Source: Pseudomonas taiwanensis (lineage in GTDB: Bacteria > Pseudomonadota > Gammaproteobacteria > Pseudomonadales > Pseudomonadaceae). From it: a stretch of DNA of 64,000 nucleotides. How positions within the stretch are numbered: position 1 is the first letter of the stretch; every line of letters begins with the position of its first letter. Positions 9,226-15,862 of the stretch are shown one piece after another. The notes below the pieces were generated by a model. That model saw nothing but the letters and a program-made list of their open reading frames with translations. It searched no databases and was not told where the DNA came from. Both the position numbers and the translations under genes were made by a program. The stretch spans positions 1-64,000 of the forward strand of contig NZ_QJRF01000057.1 of the NCBI RefSeq assembly GCF_013393345.1. Direction: 5' to 3'.

Positions 9226-9395
9226 GGCGAAATGGCCTGACATCGAGCCAGCCTGCACCACCCTCTCCCCCGGCCCCCGCCCTGCGCCCCGGCCTGATCG
9301 CTTCGCGCTCAGGCGTTCATCTGCACTGGAAGCGGTGCTTCCAAAAGCGTGCCTCTTCACCCCGGAGGGCGAGGGGTGACGCCAGACGGCTCAGC

Positions 9396-10388
9396 CCTGT
9401 AGGGGCGAATTCATTCGCCAAGGCCACGCAGTGGCCCCTTCGGGGTTGATGGGTATCGCTCCGCTCCACCCATCCTACGAATCCGGTCCTGTGGGAGCGA
9501 ATTCATTCGCGAAATGGTTCGGCACCGAGCCGGCCGGCTGCAACCCTCTCCCCCGGCCCCTCTCCCGGAGGGCGAGGGGTGACTCTCGGCCCACTTTCGG
9601 CACAGTCCTGTGGGGGCGATTTCAATCGCTATGCAGGACGCAGTCCTGTCTGCTCTTGTGGGAGCGAATGCATTCGCGAAATGGTTGGGCACCGCGCTAG
9701 CAGGCCACACCCTCATCCGAACGCGGCCCGCCCCGGCCCCTCTCCCAGAGGGCGAGGGGTGACTCCCAGCCCACCTCCGGCGCAATCCTGTGGGGGCGAT
9801 TTCAATCGCTATGCAGGACGCAGTCCTGCCCGCTCTTGTAGGAGCGAATTCATTCGCGAAATGGTCGGGCACCGAGCCGGCCGGGTGCCACCCTCACCCC
9901 CGGCCCCTCTCCCGCAGGCGGGAGAGGGGTGACTCTCGGCTCACCTCCGCATCTCCCTGTGGGGGCGATTTCAATCGCTATGCTGGACGCAGTCCTGCCC
10001 GCTCTTGTGGGAGCGAATTCATTCGCGAAATGGTTAGGCACCGAGCCAGCCGGTTGCAACCCTATCCCCCGGCCCCTCTCCCGCAGGCGGGAGAGGGGTG
10101 ACTCCCGGCTCAGCTTCGGCGCAGTCCTTTGGGTGCGATTTCAATCGCTAAGCAGGACGCAGTCCTGCCTGCTGTTGTGGGAGCGAATTCATTCGCGAAA
10201 TGGTTGGGCACCGCGCTAGCCGGCCACACCCTCATCCGAACGCGGCCCGCCCCGGCCCCTCTCCCAGAGGGCGAGGGGTGACTCTCGGCCCACTTTCGGC
10301 ACAGTCCTGTAGGGGCGAATTCATTCGCCAAGGCCACGCAGTGGCCCCATCGGGGTTGATGGGTATCGCTCCGCTCCACCCATCCTAC
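9396..10388. repeat. Tandem REP-containing repeat array with 83-bp terminal direct repeats
   Basis: Five head-to-tail units begin at 9491, 9658, 9838, 10007 and 10177 (about 167-180 bp, the last one partial). Each holds a GCGAATTCATTCGC palindrome with GCGAAATGGT, a CCCCTCTCCC..GAGGGGTGACTC inverted repeat, and a GCGATTTCAATCGC palindrome with GCAGGACGCAGTCCTG. Units 2 and 5 share a longer variant segment. The flanks 9396-9478 and 10306-10388 are direct repeats differing at one base by eye. No plausible gene lies here, and 9226-9395 holds only broken copies of the same modules. The array separates the yeiE-like gene from the convergent stressosome operon. Confidence 0.9.
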
Positions 10389-10402
10389 AAATGGGGTACC
10401 GA

Positions 10403-11521
10403 CTACGGGCTGACCGAGGCGATCGCAGCCGGCAGGCGCAACTCGACGCAGGCCAGGTCATTGGTGTTGCTGAATTGCACCCCGCCTCCGAAGCTTTCGG
10501 TCAGGGCCTTCACGATGGGCAGGCCCAGCCCCCAGCCCTTCGCATCGCTCTGGGTAGAGATGAAATACGGCGTGGCGAGGTTCTTCAGCACGTCATCCGG
10601 AAACAGGCCCTCGTTGCATACCGTGAGATGAACCCAGCCGTCCTTGCTGGTCTGGGTGATGCGGATCGGTGCGCCCGACTTGCCATGCTTGGCGGCGTTG
10701 CCCACCAGGTTGTCGAAGATACGCACGAACGCCGCCCGATCCCAGACCACCACACCGGAGTTCTCGTCCATTTCCAGTTCCAGGGGATTGGTCAAGTGCA
10801 GCGCCAGATTGGCTACGGCTTCGCGCAAGAGCGAAGGCAGGTCGAGCTGCGCCCCCACCAATTTGATGCCACCTCCTACGCTGACATGGGAAATGTCCAG
10901 CAGGTTGGCCACCATCTCATCGATGCGCTTCAGGTTGTTTTCCAGGATGGCGAGGAGTTCATCGGTGCGTCGCGACGGGTTGCTGCGCATCAATCCCGTG
11001 GCCATCACCGCAGCGGACAAGGGTGAGCGCAGGTCGTGGGTGAACGAGCGCATGAAGCGCTGCAGCATGATCTTCTCCCTGCTCAGCTGCTCGTTGCGCG
11101 CCTTCGCCCGATTGCGCTGCCGTTCGAGCCTTTCGACGCGGCTGTTGCTCTTCATCAGGCTGGCGATGGTCGCCATCACCTCTTCGGGATTGATCGGGTG
11201 GGTCAGGTAGGCCCTGGCGCCGGTATTGATCCCCTTGGCCTTGTCGCTGCTACTGACGAAGGTGGCGGAGATGTTGATGATCGCGGGCAGGCGCGACGGA
11301 CCGAGTTGCTTCTCGGCCACCTGGATCAGTTCGAAACCGGTCATGTCGGGCAGGTTGATGTCGAGGATCACCAGATCGACGCCTTGCATCATCAGGGCAA
11401 GGCCTTCAGCACCGTTCCTTGCCTCGATGATCTCGAAACCCGGGTCGTTGGTGACGATCTTGCGCAGTACATAGCGGTTGGCTTCGAGGTCGTCGATGAT
11501 CAGGACTCTCTTAGTGTCCAT
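10403..11521 (-). CDS. Hybrid receiver-histidine kinase, last gene of stressosome-like operon
   Basis: 372 aa. The receiver domain (1-120) has acidic residues DD at 10-11 and phospho-acceptor Asp54 in LDINLPD. The invariant receiver Lys is His (AYLTHPINP). Residues 121-155 form a basic coiled coil. The DHp helix has His162 in FTHDLRSPLS. The ATPase domain has an N box (NLVGNAAKHG) and G2 box (GWGLGLPIV), with a G1 box reading NEGLF where DxGxG is usual. There is no DNA-binding, GGDEF or other output domain. It overlaps the upstream kinase gene by 11 bp, so translation is coupled. It may act as a phosphorelay intermediate or protein kinase. The partner is unknown. Confidence 0.85.
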   Translation of the reverse strand: MDTKRVLIIDDLEANRYVLRKIVTNDPGFEIIEARNGAEGLALMMQGVDLVILDINLPDMTGFELIQVAEKQLGPSRLPAIINISATFVSSSDKAKGINTGARAYLTHPINPEEVMATIASLMKSNSRVERLERQRNRAKARNEQLSREKIMLQRFMRSFTHDLRSPLSAAVMATGLMRSNPSRRTDELLAILENNLKRIDEMVANLLDISHVSVGGGIKLVGAQLDLPSLLREAVANLALHLTNPLELEMDENSGVVVWDRAAFVRIFDNLVGNAAKHGKSGAPIRITQTSKDGWVHLTVCNEGLFPDDVLKNLATPYFISTQSDAKGWGLGLPIVKALTESFGGGVQFSNTNDLACVELRLPAAIASVSP

Positions 11522-13274
11522 CGCTTTGTTCCTCCGTCAGGCGCCGCACATGATGCAGCACCTGCTCGCTGTAGTCCGGCTGGGACTTTTGCAGGATCGC
11601 CCGGCTCTGGCGGCCGAGCCGCTCCAGGCTCGCCTCGTCGAGAATCTTGGCGGTACAGATCAGAACCCTTGAATGCAGGCTCCAATCCATGCTTTCCAAC
11701 AGGTCCTCCCCAGCGATGTCGGGAAGGTCCAGGTCAAGGAAGATGATGTCCGGCCGTACGGCGAACAGCTTGTCGATGCTCGATGCCGCATTGGCGGCCT
11801 CGAAGATCACCGGGTGATAGGGCTGCAGCAGGCGCGCGAGGAAGTAGCGATCCGCCTCGCTGTCGTCGATCAGCAGAATGCTGACGCCGGACAGGTCGAG
11901 GTTACTCGCTTCGCTGCTGGCTCGGTCATGAAAGCGAGCGATGCGCAGCAGGAACCGGCTGCCTCGCCCCAGCGCGCTGTCCACGCTGATGTCGCCGTGA
12001 AGCAGTCTCGCCAGGCGCTGAGCCAGCGGCAGGCCGAGGCCGGTACCCTGGACCTTGGCCTGGTCATGGCCACGCACCCGCAGGAACTCTTCGAACACCC
12101 GGACATGATTTTCCGGCGCGATACCAATGCCGGTGTCTTCCACCAGGAACTCCACGCTTTGTTCGTCCGGCCGGTAGATGCGCACGCAGACCTTGCCACT
12201 GGGGGTGTACTTGAAGGCGTTGTCGATCAGGTTGCGCATGACCTGGAACAGCCTGTGCCGGTCGGTCTCCAGCTCCACGTCGCAAGGCGCGCTGTCCACT
12301 TCCCACTGCAGCAACGGGAAGCGCAAGGCGATGGCACTGGTGAACTGGCGCAGCTCATGGACGAAATCATCGAGGGTGAAACGCACGGGAATGATCTCGA
12401 TTCGTCCGGACTCGGCCTTGGACAGGTCAAGCAGGTCATTCACCACGGCCGAGAGTTCGGCAGCGGCTTCGCTGATGAAGGTCACCTGCTTGTACTGCTC
12501 CTGATTGAGCGTACCGTCGACACCCTGGAGCAGCAGCTTGCTGATGTTTTCGACGATGTTGATCGGGGTGCGGATCTCATGGGTCATATTGGTGAAGAAG
12601 CGACTCTTCGACTCACTGGCCTCGCGCACCTCCTCGTTGGCCTTCTCCAGTTCGGAATACAGGGCGACCACCCCCTTGTTGGTGTTTTCCAGCTCCACGT
12701 TGATGGCTTCCAGCTCGATCTGCTTGTTCTGCAATTCCGATGTGGTGAGCAGCAGCTCGGTACCGCGCACCTGAAGCTCGATATAGGGGTCAGCTGCACC
12801 TTCGGCCTGCAGCTGGGCACGAATCTCGTTGGTCTGCGACGAGGAAGGAAATGGGCGCGCAGGGAAAATCACCTTGCGTGCACGAATTTGCGTTCCGCTG
12901 GACGAAGTGCGTATCTCGAATTCGTCCATCAGCCGCTGTGCGCCCCGCAGGCCGAGGCCCATGCCGGTGGGCGAGACATAGCTGCCGTCGAGGATCTGCT
13001 CGATGCTGTCGATACCCGGGCCCTCGTCCATGGCCTCGAAACACAGGTGGCTCAACTGGCCTCGGGTATCCGCCGAAAGATCGAAATGGAAGGTTCCCCC
13101 GCCAGCGTACTGATAGATATTGCGCGCCAGCTCCGACACTGCCGTGGCAAAGCGGATCTGTTCGATCTGTGGCAGGTCGAGCCAGCCCGCGACGCGCCGG
13201 GCACTCTGGCGGCAGGCAACGACATCGACTTCCTCACGGATGTGGATGCTGGCGATGCGTTGCTTCTTCTGCAT
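11511..13274 (-). CDS. Hybrid histidine kinase with N-terminal RsbT-like ATPase domain
   Basis: 587 aa in four parts. Residues 1-140 form an RsbT/RsbW-type GHKL ATPase (SELARNIYQYAGGG, DEGPGI, TGMGLGLRGAQ). Residues 175-222 form a coiled coil. The HisKA/HATPase core has His232 (MTHEIRTP), NLIDNAFKYTPSG, DTGIGI and GTGLGLPLA. The C-terminal receiver has Asp514 in FLDLDLPD and a Lys near 562. Two ATP-binding domains in one chain suggest it can exchange signals with the RsbS/RsbR core through one and by phosphotransfer through the other. No membrane segments are present. It overlaps its upstream and downstream neighbours, so translation is coupled. Confidence 0.88.
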   Translation of the reverse strand: MQKKQRIASIHIREEVDVVACRQSARRVAGWLDLPQIEQIRFATAVSELARNIYQYAGGGTFHFDLSADTRGQLSHLCFEAMDEGPGIDSIEQILDGSYVSPTGMGLGLRGAQRLMDEFEIRTSSSGTQIRARKVIFPARPFPSSSQTNEIRAQLQAEGAADPYIELQVRGTELLLTTSELQNKQIELEAINVELENTNKGVVALYSELEKANEEVREASESKSRFFTNMTHEIRTPINIVENISKLLLQGVDGTLNQEQYKQVTFISEAAAELSAVVNDLLDLSKAESGRIEIIPVRFTLDDFVHELRQFTSAIALRFPLLQWEVDSAPCDVELETDRHRLFQVMRNLIDNAFKYTPSGKVCVRIYRPDEQSVEFLVEDTGIGIAPENHVRVFEEFLRVRGHDQAKVQGTGLGLPLAQRLARLLHGDISVDSALGRGSRFLLRIARFHDRASSEASNLDLSGVSILLIDDSEADRYFLARLLQPYHPVIFEAANAASSIDKLFAVRPDIIFLDLDLPDIAGEDLLESMDWSLHSRVLICTAKILDEASLERLGRQSRAILQKSQPDYSEQVLHHVRRLTEEQSDGH

Positions 13275-14238
13275 ATCGGGTCACTACCACAGTGGCGTCG
13301 TCGTTATGGCGTTTGAAGTCGCGGTGAATCACCGCGGCGATTACCGCAGGATGCCGCATCGTCAGGCCGGAATAGCTGGCCAGGTCATGGCGGGTGCTGA
13401 TCCCGTCGGAGGCCAGCAGCAACAAGGTGGAGGGCGTCCACGGATAGCTGAAGCTGCGGATCTTCCCGATCCGATAGCCCACGGTGCCATTGCCGGAAAC
13501 CATGCTGCGGCTGCGGCCGTCATGCAGTAAGCCGGCAATGTTGCCCATTCCGCAAAAGCGCACCTGGGCCTGATGGGGCAGGACTTCGGTCAATGCCACC
13601 GCTCCGCCTCGGGTCGCCATCAACGCCCGGTGCAAACATTCGAGCAGGGTTTCCAGCGAGAGGTTCAGGTCATGTTTGAGGAACAGCTGGCAGGCCCTGT
13701 TGCTGGCCGCGTTGGCAGCGTGACCGTGGCCGAGGCCGTCACACACCATCACCCGATTGCCCTTGACCGCCCAGGCATCGCCACTCACCGTTTCTCCCGG
13801 ATAGGGCGTACAGATGCCGCCCACCAGCCAATCGCTCGCCGTTGCTTGCAGGCGGAACTGCGCGAGCACGGTAGTGCCCTGCCCTGGCTGGGAGTAGATG
13901 TCGAACAGGTCGGAGAGCCGGCTGATTGCCCCGAGGCCAGCGCCCATGGTCCCGCTGGTCGAGTAGCTGTCGGCCAGGCAGCGGGCCACGTCGGTCATGC
14001 CCGGCCCCCGGTCGACGGCAAGCAACTCGAGGCGATTCGGGTCCTGGGAGAAGAGGATTTCACCGCCCTTGGCGTGAATCACCAGATTACGCGCCATTTC
14101 CTGGATCACCACGGCAAGGCGGTCCAGCACCGATTCGTCGGTACATACCTGGCGCGCATGGCTGACTATCGAGCGGCGCACGGCGTCCGCATGGGCCAGA
14201 TGGGTAACGGCATGAACCTGCGTGGCCTGGCCGTTCAT
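13234..14238 (-). CDS. rsbX: GHKL ATPase-SpoIIE phosphatase fusion (RsbX-like)
   Basis: 334 aa from ATG 14238, which overlaps the rsbT stop as ATGA; a slightly longer start at 14250 is possible. Residues 1-130 form an RsbT-like ATPase fold with intact N box (EMARNLVIHAKGG), G1 (DRGPGM) and G2 (GTMGAGLGA). Residues 135-325 form a PP2C/SpoIIE phosphatase with metal Asp in VCDGLGHG and LLLLASDGIS. Bacillus RsbX, which removes the stressosome phosphates, has only the phosphatase part. This arrangement could hold kinase-like and phosphatase functions in one chain. Its 3' end overlaps the next gene by 41 bp. Confidence 0.88.
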   Translation of the reverse strand: MNGQATQVHAVTHLAHADAVRRSIVSHARQVCTDESVLDRLAVVIQEMARNLVIHAKGGEILFSQDPNRLELLAVDRGPGMTDVARCLADSYSTSGTMGAGLGAISRLSDLFDIYSQPGQGTTVLAQFRLQATASDWLVGGICTPYPGETVSGDAWAVKGNRVMVCDGLGHGHAANAASNRACQLFLKHDLNLSLETLLECLHRALMATRGGAVALTEVLPHQAQVRFCGMGNIAGLLHDGRSRSMVSGNGTVGYRIGKIRSFSYPWTPSTLLLLASDGISTRHDLASYSGLTMRHPAVIAAVIHRDFKRHNDDATVVVTRYAEEATHRQHPHP

Positions 14239-14633
14239 TTCCACTTCCACATTTCAACCGTGGTGCCGCTGCCGGGCTCGCTGCGGATCGAGAACTCGTC
14301 GACCAGCCGTCGCGAACCGCTGAGCCCCAGCCCCAGCCCATTACCCGAGGTGTAACCATCGCGCAGCGCCTGTTCGATATCCGCTATGCCGGGGCCCTGG
14401 TCGGTGATGACCAGGCGCAGCGCTGCACGTGCCTCACGCTGGGTGATCTCGATAAGGCATTCGCCGCCACCGCCATAGAGCAGTGCGTTGCGCCCGATTT
14501 CACTGGCTGCGGTAACGATCTTGGTCTGCGAGACCAGCCCGAGGTTGGCCTGCGCGGCGGCTTTGCGAACCTGCTGGCGGACGACAACGATGTCAGTTTC
14601 CTGCTTCAGCGGGAGCGTCTGTGTCGTCGTCAC
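14235..14633 (-). CDS. rsbT: Stressosome switch kinase RsbT
   Basis: 132 aa, a single GHKL kinase domain. The N box is SEIGRNALLYGGGG, the G1 box DQGPGI and the G2 box GNGLGLGLSGSRRL. In Bacillus, RsbT phosphorylates the STAS domains of RsbR and RsbS and is then released to activate a downstream target. It starts inside the 3' end of rsbS (41-bp overlap) and its stop overlaps the next ATG. No rsbU or sigB homologue is in the window, so its target here is not evident. Confidence 0.92.
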   Translation of the reverse strand: MTTTQTLPLKQETDIVVVRQQVRKAAAQANLGLVSQTKIVTAASEIGRNALLYGGGGECLIEITQREARAALRLVITDQGPGIADIEQALRDGYTSGNGLGLGLSGSRRLVDEFSIRSEPGSGTTVEMWKWK

Positions 14634-15015
14634 GTTCGTGCTCCCAGGGCTCGTCGTCGCTCAGGCTGGTTTCGAGCCAGCGCATGCCTTTTTCGATATT
14701 CAGTGCCGTGGCGATGCCTTCCAGCGAGAGCCCCAGCTCCACCAGTGTGATCGCCACTGCCGGCTGCATGCCGACCACGATCACCTTGGCGTCGAGAATC
14801 CGCGAGACGTTGGCGATATGGGAAAGCATGCGCCCGATGAAAGAGTCGACTATCTCCAGGGAGGAAATATCGATCAGCACGCCTTTCGCCCTGTGCCGCA
14901 CGATCTGGTCGGTCAGGTCCTCCTGCAGGTCCATGGCCAGTTGATCGTGCATGTCGACCTGGATGCTGAGCAGCAAGTACCTGCCCATTTTGAGAATCGG
15001 GATACGATCTACCAT
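14593..15015 (-). CDS. rsbS: Stressosome scaffold RsbS, STAS-domain protein
   Basis: 140 aa from ATG 15015 (MVDRIPILKMGR), preceded by GAGGAA at good spacing. The single STAS domain keeps the RsbT phosphorylation site as Ser58 in EIVDSFIGRM, with the family segment VIVVGMQPAVAITLVELG. Residues 115-140 form an acidic, probably disordered tail (DDEPWEHERDDD) beyond the usual ~120-aa length. This tail lies in the region overlapping rsbT. RsbS forms the core of the stressosome with RsbR. Confidence 0.93.
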   Translation of the reverse strand: MVDRIPILKMGRYLLLSIQVDMHDQLAMDLQEDLTDQIVRHRAKGVLIDISSLEIVDSFIGRMLSHIANVSRILDAKVIVVGMQPAVAITLVELGLSLEGIATALNIEKGMRWLETSLSDDEPWEHERDDDTDAPAEAGN

Positions 15016-15025
15016 GCTGGCTTCC

Positions 15026-15862
15026 TCAGCGAGACAAGGTGCTGCTGACCACACGCATGTCCATCTGTTTCAGGGCCATCTTGAAGGCGTCCGCCAGGGA
15101 AGCCTTGGTCACGACATCACCCAGCTCCACGCCCAAGTGGACGATGGTTGCGGCGATCTGCGGGCGGATACCGCTGATGATGCATCTGGCACCCATCAGC
15201 TTGGCGGCGGTGATGGTCTTGAGCAGGTGCTGGGCGACCATGGTGTCGACGGTGGGCACGCCGGTGATGTCGATGATGGCGATATCCGACTCGGTTTCGA
15301 CGATCTTCTCCAGCAAAGACTCCATCACGATCTGCGTGCGGTTGCTGTCCAGCGCACCGATCAGTGGCACGGCCAGCACGCCGTCCCACAACTGGACCAC
15401 CGGCGTGGACAATTCCAGCATGCTCTCCTGCTGCTCGCGGATCACCGTTTCCCGGCCGGCTATGAAGTATTCGAGGCTGAACAGGCCCAGTTGGTCGATC
15501 AACCTGCTGACTTGCCAGAGCGCCTCGACGGAATCGCCCTCCTGCATCAACTCGAACAGCGGTTCCTTGAGCGAGAAGACGAAGGTGGCGGTTTCGGAAG
15601 GGCTGAATCCCTGGCGGGCCTGGGCCACCGACAGGCGTTCCAGCTGCAGCTTCAGCGGTTGCCACGCGGCTGCTTCGAAGCTGTCGGAGCCTTGTGCCAG
15701 GGCCATGGTGAAGGCCTTGAGCAACTCACGGGAGTTCTCTTCCACCGCCCGCTCGTCAATCAGGTCCAGGCGAATCCCGGCTGCCCGCTGGGCCGCCAAC
15801 CACTTCTCCAACAGTTGCTGTTCGTTCCGTTTGAAAAGCTCGGCAAGCAAAGACATGGACAT
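15026..15862 (-). CDS. rsbR: Stressosome sensor RsbR, N-terminal sensory domain plus STAS
   Basis: 278 aa. The N-terminal helical domain (about 5-135) looks like the RsbRD-type sensor rather than the globin-like one, with EKWLAAQRAAG at 19-29. A linker helix follows (LSTPVVQLWDGVLAVPLIG). The C-terminal STAS domain has Thr207 in TVDTMVA, equivalent to the RsbT-targeted Thr of Bacillus RsbR, and Thr239 in GIRPQIAAT, probably the second site. It is the first gene of the six-gene operon. The 255-bp region upstream, shared with the divergent GNAT gene, must hold the promoter; I saw no convincing -35/-10 pair. Confidence 0.92.
   Translation of the reverse strand: MSMSLLAELFKRNEQQLLEKWLAAQRAAGIRLDLIDERAVEENSRELLKAFTMALAQGSDSFEAAAWQPLKLQLERLSVAQARQGFSPSETATFVFSLKEPLFELMQEGDSVEALWQVSRLIDQLGLFSLEYFIAGRETVIREQQESMLELSTPVVQLWDGVLAVPLIGALDSNRTQIVMESLLEKIVETESDIAIIDITGVPTVDTMVAQHLLKTITAAKLMGARCIISGIRPQIAATIVHLGVELGDVVTKASLADAFKMALKQMDMRVVSSTLSR

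Follow-up and report, generated by a model that had tools for sequence, protein, structure and literature searches.

A Pseudomonas stressosome operon with a predicted RsbT-type domain on a histidine kinase

Introduction

How can a stressosome that has no target with an RsbU_N domain be coupled to a histidine kinase? In the Vibrio literature this coupling is left open (PMC9237108, accessible part), and the question is raised anew by six genes (rsbR, rsbS, rsbT, an rsbX-like phosphatase gene and two kinase genes) on the minus strand of the window, i.e. the 64,000-nucleotide stretch of Pseudomonas taiwanensis DNA (contig NZ_QJRF01000057.1) analysed here. We report that this operon, as judged from domain predictions, encodes three RsbT-type domains: the free RsbT, the N terminus of the phosphatase and the N terminus of the first kinase (kinase 1). 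The latter two may offer a physical route from the stressosome to the kinase, and we lean towards the reading that the stressosome output is a histidine kinase with an RsbT-type docking domain of its own, which would be released by RsbS phosphorylation. If so, serine/threonine partner switching and a two-component phosphorelay would be linked in one polypeptide. Moreover, an RsbT-type domain on the kinase makes the coupling question testable, with loci in which this domain is intact, degenerate or missing as natural controls. The gene order is known already from Deinococcus; the RsbT-type domain on a histidine kinase is undescribed in the literature surveyed, i.e. no description was found in open-licence papers, of which the coverage was limited.

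Organisation of the operon

An earlier note on this DNA, made from the letters alone, had described a six-gene operon with overlaps of 41, 4, 41 and 11 bp and one gap of 10 bp. The six open reading frames (10403-15862) lie where it had placed them, each gene has Pfam support, and the recomputed junctions gave the same values (+10, -41, -4, -41 and -11 bp from gene 1 to gene 6). The genes and domains are as follows (aa, amino acids; E values in brackets).

15026-15862, minus strand: rsbR, 278 aa; RsbRD_N sensor-type N-terminal domain (Pfam, 1.2e-25) and STAS domain (Pfam, 2.8e-14)
14593-15015, minus strand: rsbS, 140 aa; ATG start, single STAS domain, phospho-site Ser58
14235-14633, minus strand: rsbT, 132 aa; GTG start, free switch kinase, overlapping rsbS by 41 bp (Pfam HATPase_c/HATPase_c_2)
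13234-14238, minus strand: rsbX-like feedback phosphatase, 334 aa, ATG at 14238; RsbT-like ATPase (aa 1-130) and PP2C (aa 138-325)
13849-14238, minus strand: RsbT-like domain of the phosphatase, aa 1-130; Arg21 and the Glu and Asn of the N-box kept
11511-13274, minus strand: kinase 1, 587 aa; RsbT-like domain, signalling helix, HisKA-HATPase (His232) and REC (Asp514)
12861-13274, minus strand: RsbT-like domain of kinase 1, aa 1-138; Arg22, Glu48, Asn52 and Asp83 (Pfam HATPase_c_2 at aa 18-134)
12618-12704, minus strand: signalling helix of kinase 1, motif ENTNKGVVALYSELEK, aa 191-219
11937-12611, minus strand: HisKA-HATPase catalytic core of kinase 1, aa 222-446 (Pfam)
11514-11882, minus strand: C-terminal receiver of kinase 1, aa 465-587 (Pfam Response_reg, 2.2e-10)
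10403-11521, minus strand: kinase 2, 372 aa; REC (Asp54, His108), then HisKA (His162) and HATPase (Pfam)

The ATG at 15015 was taken as the rsbS start, the longer GTG reading frame being a mechanical extension. Pfam assigns HATPase_c_2, HisKA, HATPase_c and Response_reg to kinase 1 and Response_reg, HisKA and HATPase_c to kinase 2, and the phosphorelay residues are in place in both (His232 and Asp514; His162 and Asp54). No membrane-like stretch was found in either kinase (highest 19-residue Kyte-Doolittle means 1.17 and 1.35). Of the "two soluble hybrid kinases" described earlier, solubility holds for both, but only kinase 1 is a classical hybrid (histidine kinase followed by REC); in kinase 2 the REC comes first.

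RsbT-type domains on kinases and phosphatases

Genome contigs were scanned with kinase 1; the best 80 of 206 confirmed relatives were kept and the top 19 (loci L009-L027) examined. Together with the window and loci L093, L095-L098 and L118-L131 this gave 39 loci, from which 105 RsbT-type domains were gathered. In kinase 1 and in the phosphatase HATPase_c_2 exceeds the Pfam cut-off and matches best at the N terminus, where in kinase 1 no other domain is recognised. Three of the 105 domains (L119_K, which is partial, L131_RsbT and L130_Tb) were left out of the domain tree, and L131_RsbT out of the residue counts (n = 104).

In this tree the 27 kinase-linked rows fall into a single clade (support 99/95) and the 37 phosphatase-linked rows into a separate one (100/99), while the free RsbT rows were unresolved as a single clade (20% of bootstrap trees). 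Each of the two clades spans four phyla: Pseudomonadota, Deinococcota, and one member each of Acidobacteriota and Bacteroidota. A profile of the kinase-linked domain scored >170 bits in 6/299 phylum genomes and ≤132 bits for anything else, with up to 14 candidates scored per genome.

The catalytic Glu is present in 104/104 domains. The N-box Asn is missing only from two of the 28 kinase-linked domains; the full catalytic set (Glu, Asn, Asp, Gly) is likewise intact in 26 of these 28. An arginine at RsbT position 19 is kept throughout (104/104), also in the kinase-linked domains of L096 (Caballeronia) and L119, which lack the ATP motifs. Once the RsbT/SpoIIAB alignment is extended by two residues this position falls in the column of SpoIIAB Arg20, which we take to be a contact to the STAS partner; a literature search on docking by Arg20 gave no supporting paper.

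RsbX of Bacillus subtilis is a single-domain PP2C phosphatase. According to the accessible part of PMC9237108 this applies to Vibrio RsbX as well. The window phosphatase differs in having an RsbT-type domain fused at its N terminus (HATPase_c_2, 3.5e-11; SpoIIE, 1e-7). Its PP2C part resembles RsbX in sequence (E 6e-8 to RsbX 3w40 in a PDB sequence search). The four PP2C Asp positions checked are kept in 38/38 loci. Fusion of the two domains was seen in 37/39 mapped loci; the domains lie in separate frames in L130, and L097 is cut. Among six further stretches the fusion is present in L155, PP2C stands alone in its frame in L156, L157, L158 and L159, and L154 has no PP2C.

Loci with intact, degenerate and missing kinase-linked domains

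Three classes were distinguished. Class A, with an RsbT-type domain on the kinase, comprises the window and 17 relatives, Deinococcus loci L095, L097 and L098, loci L118, L120 and L125, and two metagenome-assembled genomes (L025, Acidobacteria; L027, Bacteroidetes). The domain is degenerate in class B (L096, L119) and absent from class C (the Xanthomonas vasicola plasmid locus L093, L121-L124 and L126-L129); L130 and L131 fall outside these classes. In the kinase-core tree the nine class C rows group together (99/96), next to the class A rows from Deinococcus (88/83) and inside a larger set of classes A and B, which is consistent with class C kinases having arisen by loss of the RsbT-type domain; this tree is unrooted and its long branches leave the deeper joins unsure. 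Its rows L016_C and L098_C are unrelated neighbouring kinases and were disregarded. Kinase cores of other kinds carry the RsbT-type domain too: those of L120 and L125 separate from the rest in the core tree, and that of L131 is HisKA_2.

Some of these loci merit description in their own right. In L131 (3683-4918, Pseudomonadota) the fusion to the HisKA_2 kinase lies right after rsbR-S-T-X. L154 (4018-6521) has an RsbR-type gene divergent from a histidine kinase with an RsbT-type domain, and no RsbS or free RsbT was detected in its 13-kb stretch, so that it is possibly a two-gene version; the same genome (G581) also carries the full locus L119. L093 is the 29-kb plasmid pXVH29 from a sorghum isolate of Xanthomonas, with a class C stressosome operon.

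These classes bear on another role for the domain on kinase 1, namely that of an extra switch kinase, a second, feedback writer on RsbS or RsbR, with the histidine kinase half driven separately. The catalytic residues conserved in 26/28 kinase-linked domains would fit such a writer; L096 and L119, which retain a remnant of the domain after loss of its motifs, and the class C loci, which manage without it, argue against one, and we regard this role as unlikely.

The signalling helix and its linkage to RsbS

In an AlphaFold model of kinase 1 (predicted local distance difference test score, pLDDT, 82.9; predicted template modelling score 0.41) a single unbroken helix runs from just past the RsbT-type domain into HisKA (residues 163-249), and the 50 Foldseek matches listed for the model were all histidine kinase cores or assemblies, including the HK853, GacS and RetS cores. 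Across 18 Pseudomonadaceae rows, conservation along kinase 1 (16-residue windows) peaks in windows that start at residues 194-196 in this helix, and is higher there than in the phospho-histidine region.

A peptide covering the helix and H-box was searched for in 148 Pseudomonadaceae genomes (E ≤ 1e-9) together with RsbS (E ≤ 1e-15). The peptide was found in 46 genomes, with one match each, and RsbS in 45, all of them within those 46. In 45/45 both lie on one contig and one strand, and the helix follows RsbS at a distance of 1.4-1.9 kb downstream; the lone match without RsbS (genome G121) is weak (E 5e-10) and lies in an 840-aa frame. The idea that the helix is a generic kinase feature was rejected within Pseudomonadaceae, since 45/46 matches adjoin RsbS. 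The exact motif is absent from class A loci L025 and L027, from L125 and from the segments of Vibrio-type D1 and L154, and lies further upstream in L120.

The 45 helix kinases come in two sizes, never together in one sampled Pseudomonadaceae genome. Specifically, 27 are long (frames of 585-634 aa), align with kinase 1 from within its first ten residues and accompany an RsbS 80-100% identical to that of the window, and 18 are short (290-339 aa) with an RsbS of 60-66% identity. Four of the short forms (L121-L124) were domain-mapped and have no RsbT-type domain; the rest are too short to contain one.

Here a second explanation has to be considered, in which kinase 1 is activated in trans as is RsbU: released free RsbT would bind kinase 1 and order its helix, and the RsbT-type domain would be a dimerisation or ATP-sensing element that is not docked. 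RsbT has been shown to order the coiled-coil linker of RsbU, and kinases with RsbU_N occur in rsbT operons (eLife 2025, PMC12143880, accessible part). Class C kinases, moreover, have no RsbT domain at all and still retain the TN-x-GV-x-ALY helix. Neither kinase nor the phosphatase of the window, on the other hand, has a Pfam match to the RsbU_N four-helix domain at E ≤ 0.01, and trans activation would leave the cis-fused domain of the 27/45 Pseudomonadaceae RsbS loci without a clear role. Weighing these points we see trans activation as a serious but less probable candidate.

The stressosome core

By its domains and conserved sites the operon is predicted to encode a stressosome RsbR-RsbS-RsbT module, and the earlier statements that Ser58 of RsbS, Thr207 of RsbR and the ATP motifs of RsbT are intact, and that the module and an RsbX-type phosphatase are joined to two soluble kinases, were borne out. 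Residues were compared over the 39 loci, with L097 lacking R, S and X (locus cut) and L025 a full R. The phospho-serine position of RsbS is Ser in 37/38 readable loci and Thr in one; Thr207 is present in 37/37 readable RsbR proteins, and the Ser173 position is Ser in 36/37 and Thr in 1/37. We take Ser173 and Thr207 to be the positions of B. subtilis Thr171 and Thr205, respectively. In PDB sequence searches RsbS matched B. subtilis RsbS (6jhk, E 1.1e-30) and RsbT, in which the N, G1 and G2 boxes are all intact, matched SpoIIAB (E 1e-6). The solved relatives of RsbR by sequence include Vibrio and Listeria RsbR, and its AlphaFold model (pLDDT 81.6) aligned best with L. innocua stressosome RsbR (7b0u; 278 columns, TM 0.56).

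Conservation and distribution

The gene order of the window recurs across Pseudomonadaceae, where the earlier note had proposed to look for it: all 17 named loci have the six genes in order (55-91% protein identity) despite differing flanks, which is far beyond chance. The overlap of rsbS and rsbT is 41 bp in 16/17 of them and 38 bp in L012, and the other junctions are more variable; between rsbX and kinase 1 the junction is -8 in 15/17, +3 in L015 and +24 in L016, so that the 41-bp overlap of the window at this junction is unshared. Flanking genes are common only to small subgroups and the conserved block of 18 Pseudomonadaceae loci stops after kinase 2; the six genes thus look like a self-contained unit. 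Two candidates were rejected, an adjacent output gene because none is common beyond kinase 2 in these 18 loci, and a shared promoter because the upstream regions fail to align.

Kinase 1 itself is patchily distributed in family and genus. Counting the window's own genome, it was found in 31/298 sampled family genomes (E ≤ 1e-120) and in 4/18 genus genomes (E ≤ 1e-100). RsbS was detected in 19/398 sampled phylum genomes (E ≤ 1e-25).

The second gene

A gene that begins with REC follows kinase 1 in 33/39 mapped loci. REC followed by a histidine kinase is the arrangement in all 18 class A loci of Pseudomonadaceae, in L095 and L098 from Deinococcus and in L129, which runs into the end of its contig. 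The D. psychrotolerans locus L097 has REC-GGDEF, and REC-histidine kinase-REC is seen in L093, L096, L118, L119, L121-L124 and L126-L128. The receiver is constant while the output varies, which suggests phosphotransfer from kinase 1 to the receiver of the second gene. In this receiver a His replaces the usual Lys (His108 in kinase 2) in 29 of the 33 receivers compared. This set includes L027, with its receiver gene ahead of kinase 1, and excludes the GGDEF locus L097.

A model for the output and points for and against it

We propose the following series of events. In the resting state the RsbT-type domains would hold kinase 1, the phosphatase and RsbT itself on the RsbR/RsbS shell. Under stress an RsbT-type kinase would phosphorylate RsbS at Ser58, which would free kinase 1 along with RsbT, and the helix of kinase 1 would become ordered, a step borrowed from RsbU, where RsbT orders the coiled-coil linker. 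The freed kinase would phosphorylate its His232 and the phosphate would pass to the Asp54 receiver of the second gene, which here would control the second kinase. An RsbX-type phosphatase would finally reset RsbS and RsbR.

Several results support such docking: the single kinase-linked clade, the arginine kept in all counted domains including the two without ATP motifs, the conserved helix and its invariable linkage to RsbS. Support also comes from the RsbT-type domain being retained while the kinase core changes (the separating cores of L120 and L125, HisKA_2 in L131), from the REC-first gene after kinase 1, which is consistent with phosphotransfer between them, and from L154, in which RsbR stands without RsbS beside an RsbT-type-domain kinase. 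A wider version has RsbT, the phosphatase and the output kinase competing for the same RsbS/RsbR sites, so that RsbS phosphorylation would convert Ser/Thr partner switching into a His-Asp phosphorelay, with a fusion that arose once, was held in four phyla, and in some lineages either decayed, leaving the arginine but no ATP motifs, or was dropped; this we put forward tentatively, as a proposal with slightly less than even prospects.

Other observations weigh against docking. The RsbT-type domain is, by prediction, fused to the kinase in 27/45 RsbS-bearing genomes, and 18/45 kinases are too short for it. Since these hold no such domain beside RsbS, another route is needed there, probably free RsbT acting in trans, and this route could exist here. 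The conserved arginine is probably a general feature of STAS-binding GHKL kinases and would then mark competence, not the partner. The domain of kinase 1 may be more than a dock and work as a kinase itself, given that the ATP motifs are intact in 26/28 kinase-linked domains. Residues 1-141 of kinase 1 alone had no PDB sequence relative at E ≤ 0.1. Finally, no REC-first gene follows kinase 1 in 6/39 loci: none lies within the stretch read in L025, L120, L125 and L131, in L027 a REC-REC-histidine kinase gene precedes kinase 1, and in L130 GGDEF and then a kinase are found.

Comparison with known systems

The earlier note had seen a Pseudomonas-type version, but the operon is neither peculiar to Pseudomonas nor new in its gene order, as the same six genes in the same order are present on MP1 of D. 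radiodurans R1 (DR_RS15570-15595, L095). There, kinase 1 also has an RsbT-type domain, HisKA-HATPase and REC, and kinase 2 is REC followed by a histidine kinase; identity to the window is 37% over kinase 1 residues 13-502, and the Deinococcus copy is on a plasmid. From gene order we take DR_B0028 and DR_B0029 to be the two kinases of L095. According to the accessible part of PMC6501615, these two are believed to share their regulation with an anti-sigma regulatory operon, a view for which Makarova et al. 2001 is one of the sources cited; DR_B0028 is also listed there as more abundant in vacuum-exposed cells.

The operon shares with B. subtilis RsbRST-RsbU-RsbX the RsbR/RsbS core, the RsbT switch kinase and the RsbX-type feedback phosphatase. 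In B. subtilis the signal passes from RsbT, which works in trans, to RsbU and on to sigma B (PMC12143880, accessible part), whereas the six genes of the window include no RsbU_N, RsbV, RsbW or sigma factor, and the phosphatase and kinase 1 each carry a fused RsbT-type domain. In Moorella thermoacetica (MtT, MtG) a stressosome RsbT-type kinase likewise has a non-sigma output, but this is, according to the accessible part of PMC12143880 and other sources, a diguanylate cyclase that has RsbU_N and to which MtT binds in trans. pXVH29 and the other class C loci have RsbR-S-T, the RsbT-domain phosphatase, a kinase with the same helix and a REC-first second gene; they differ in that kinase 1 lacks the RsbT-type domain and that the second gene is REC-histidine kinase-REC with a PAS-like insert (by eye).

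In Vibrio vulnificus (RsbRSTX-D1-D2), RsbR-S-T-X is followed by two-component genes as in the window, and these are the putative output (PMC9237108; PMC10014275). Of the downstream proteins of such globin-type systems that were considered, most have no RsbU_N according to the accessible part of Heinz et al. 2022 (PMC9237108), where no positive result was obtained for an RsbT-D1 interaction and a transient phosphorylation of D1 by RsbT was then proposed. Applied to kinase 1 this has little to commend it in our view: no phosphorylation site is indicated in kinase 1, and L158, which is Vibrio-type by genes alone, appears from its predicted domains to be of a different design. It has a protoglobin RsbR, a PP2C-only RsbX, a D1 of PAS-histidine kinase-REC-REC-Hpt type without detectable RsbT-type domain, and a REC-HD D2 of the c-di-GMP type; the window has an RsbRD_N RsbR, a two-domain phosphatase and a REC-histidine kinase. 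The first 150 residues of D1 (L158:6275-6724) look faintly RsbT-like by eye, and the profile test was negative. A degenerate RsbT-type domain at the D1 N terminus, suggested by eye in three sequences (L158, L161, L159), was not supported: in these three the profile comparison matched a helix segment only (probability 5%), and the domain alone scored no better than column-shuffled controls.

A repeat array downstream of the operon

Just downstream of the operon the window carries an imperfect array of ~170-bp repeats (9227-10397), with five 163-nucleotide copies 61-93% like the reference and a 39-nucleotide core present six times. The array also holds a 26-nucleotide G+C-rich inverted repeat.

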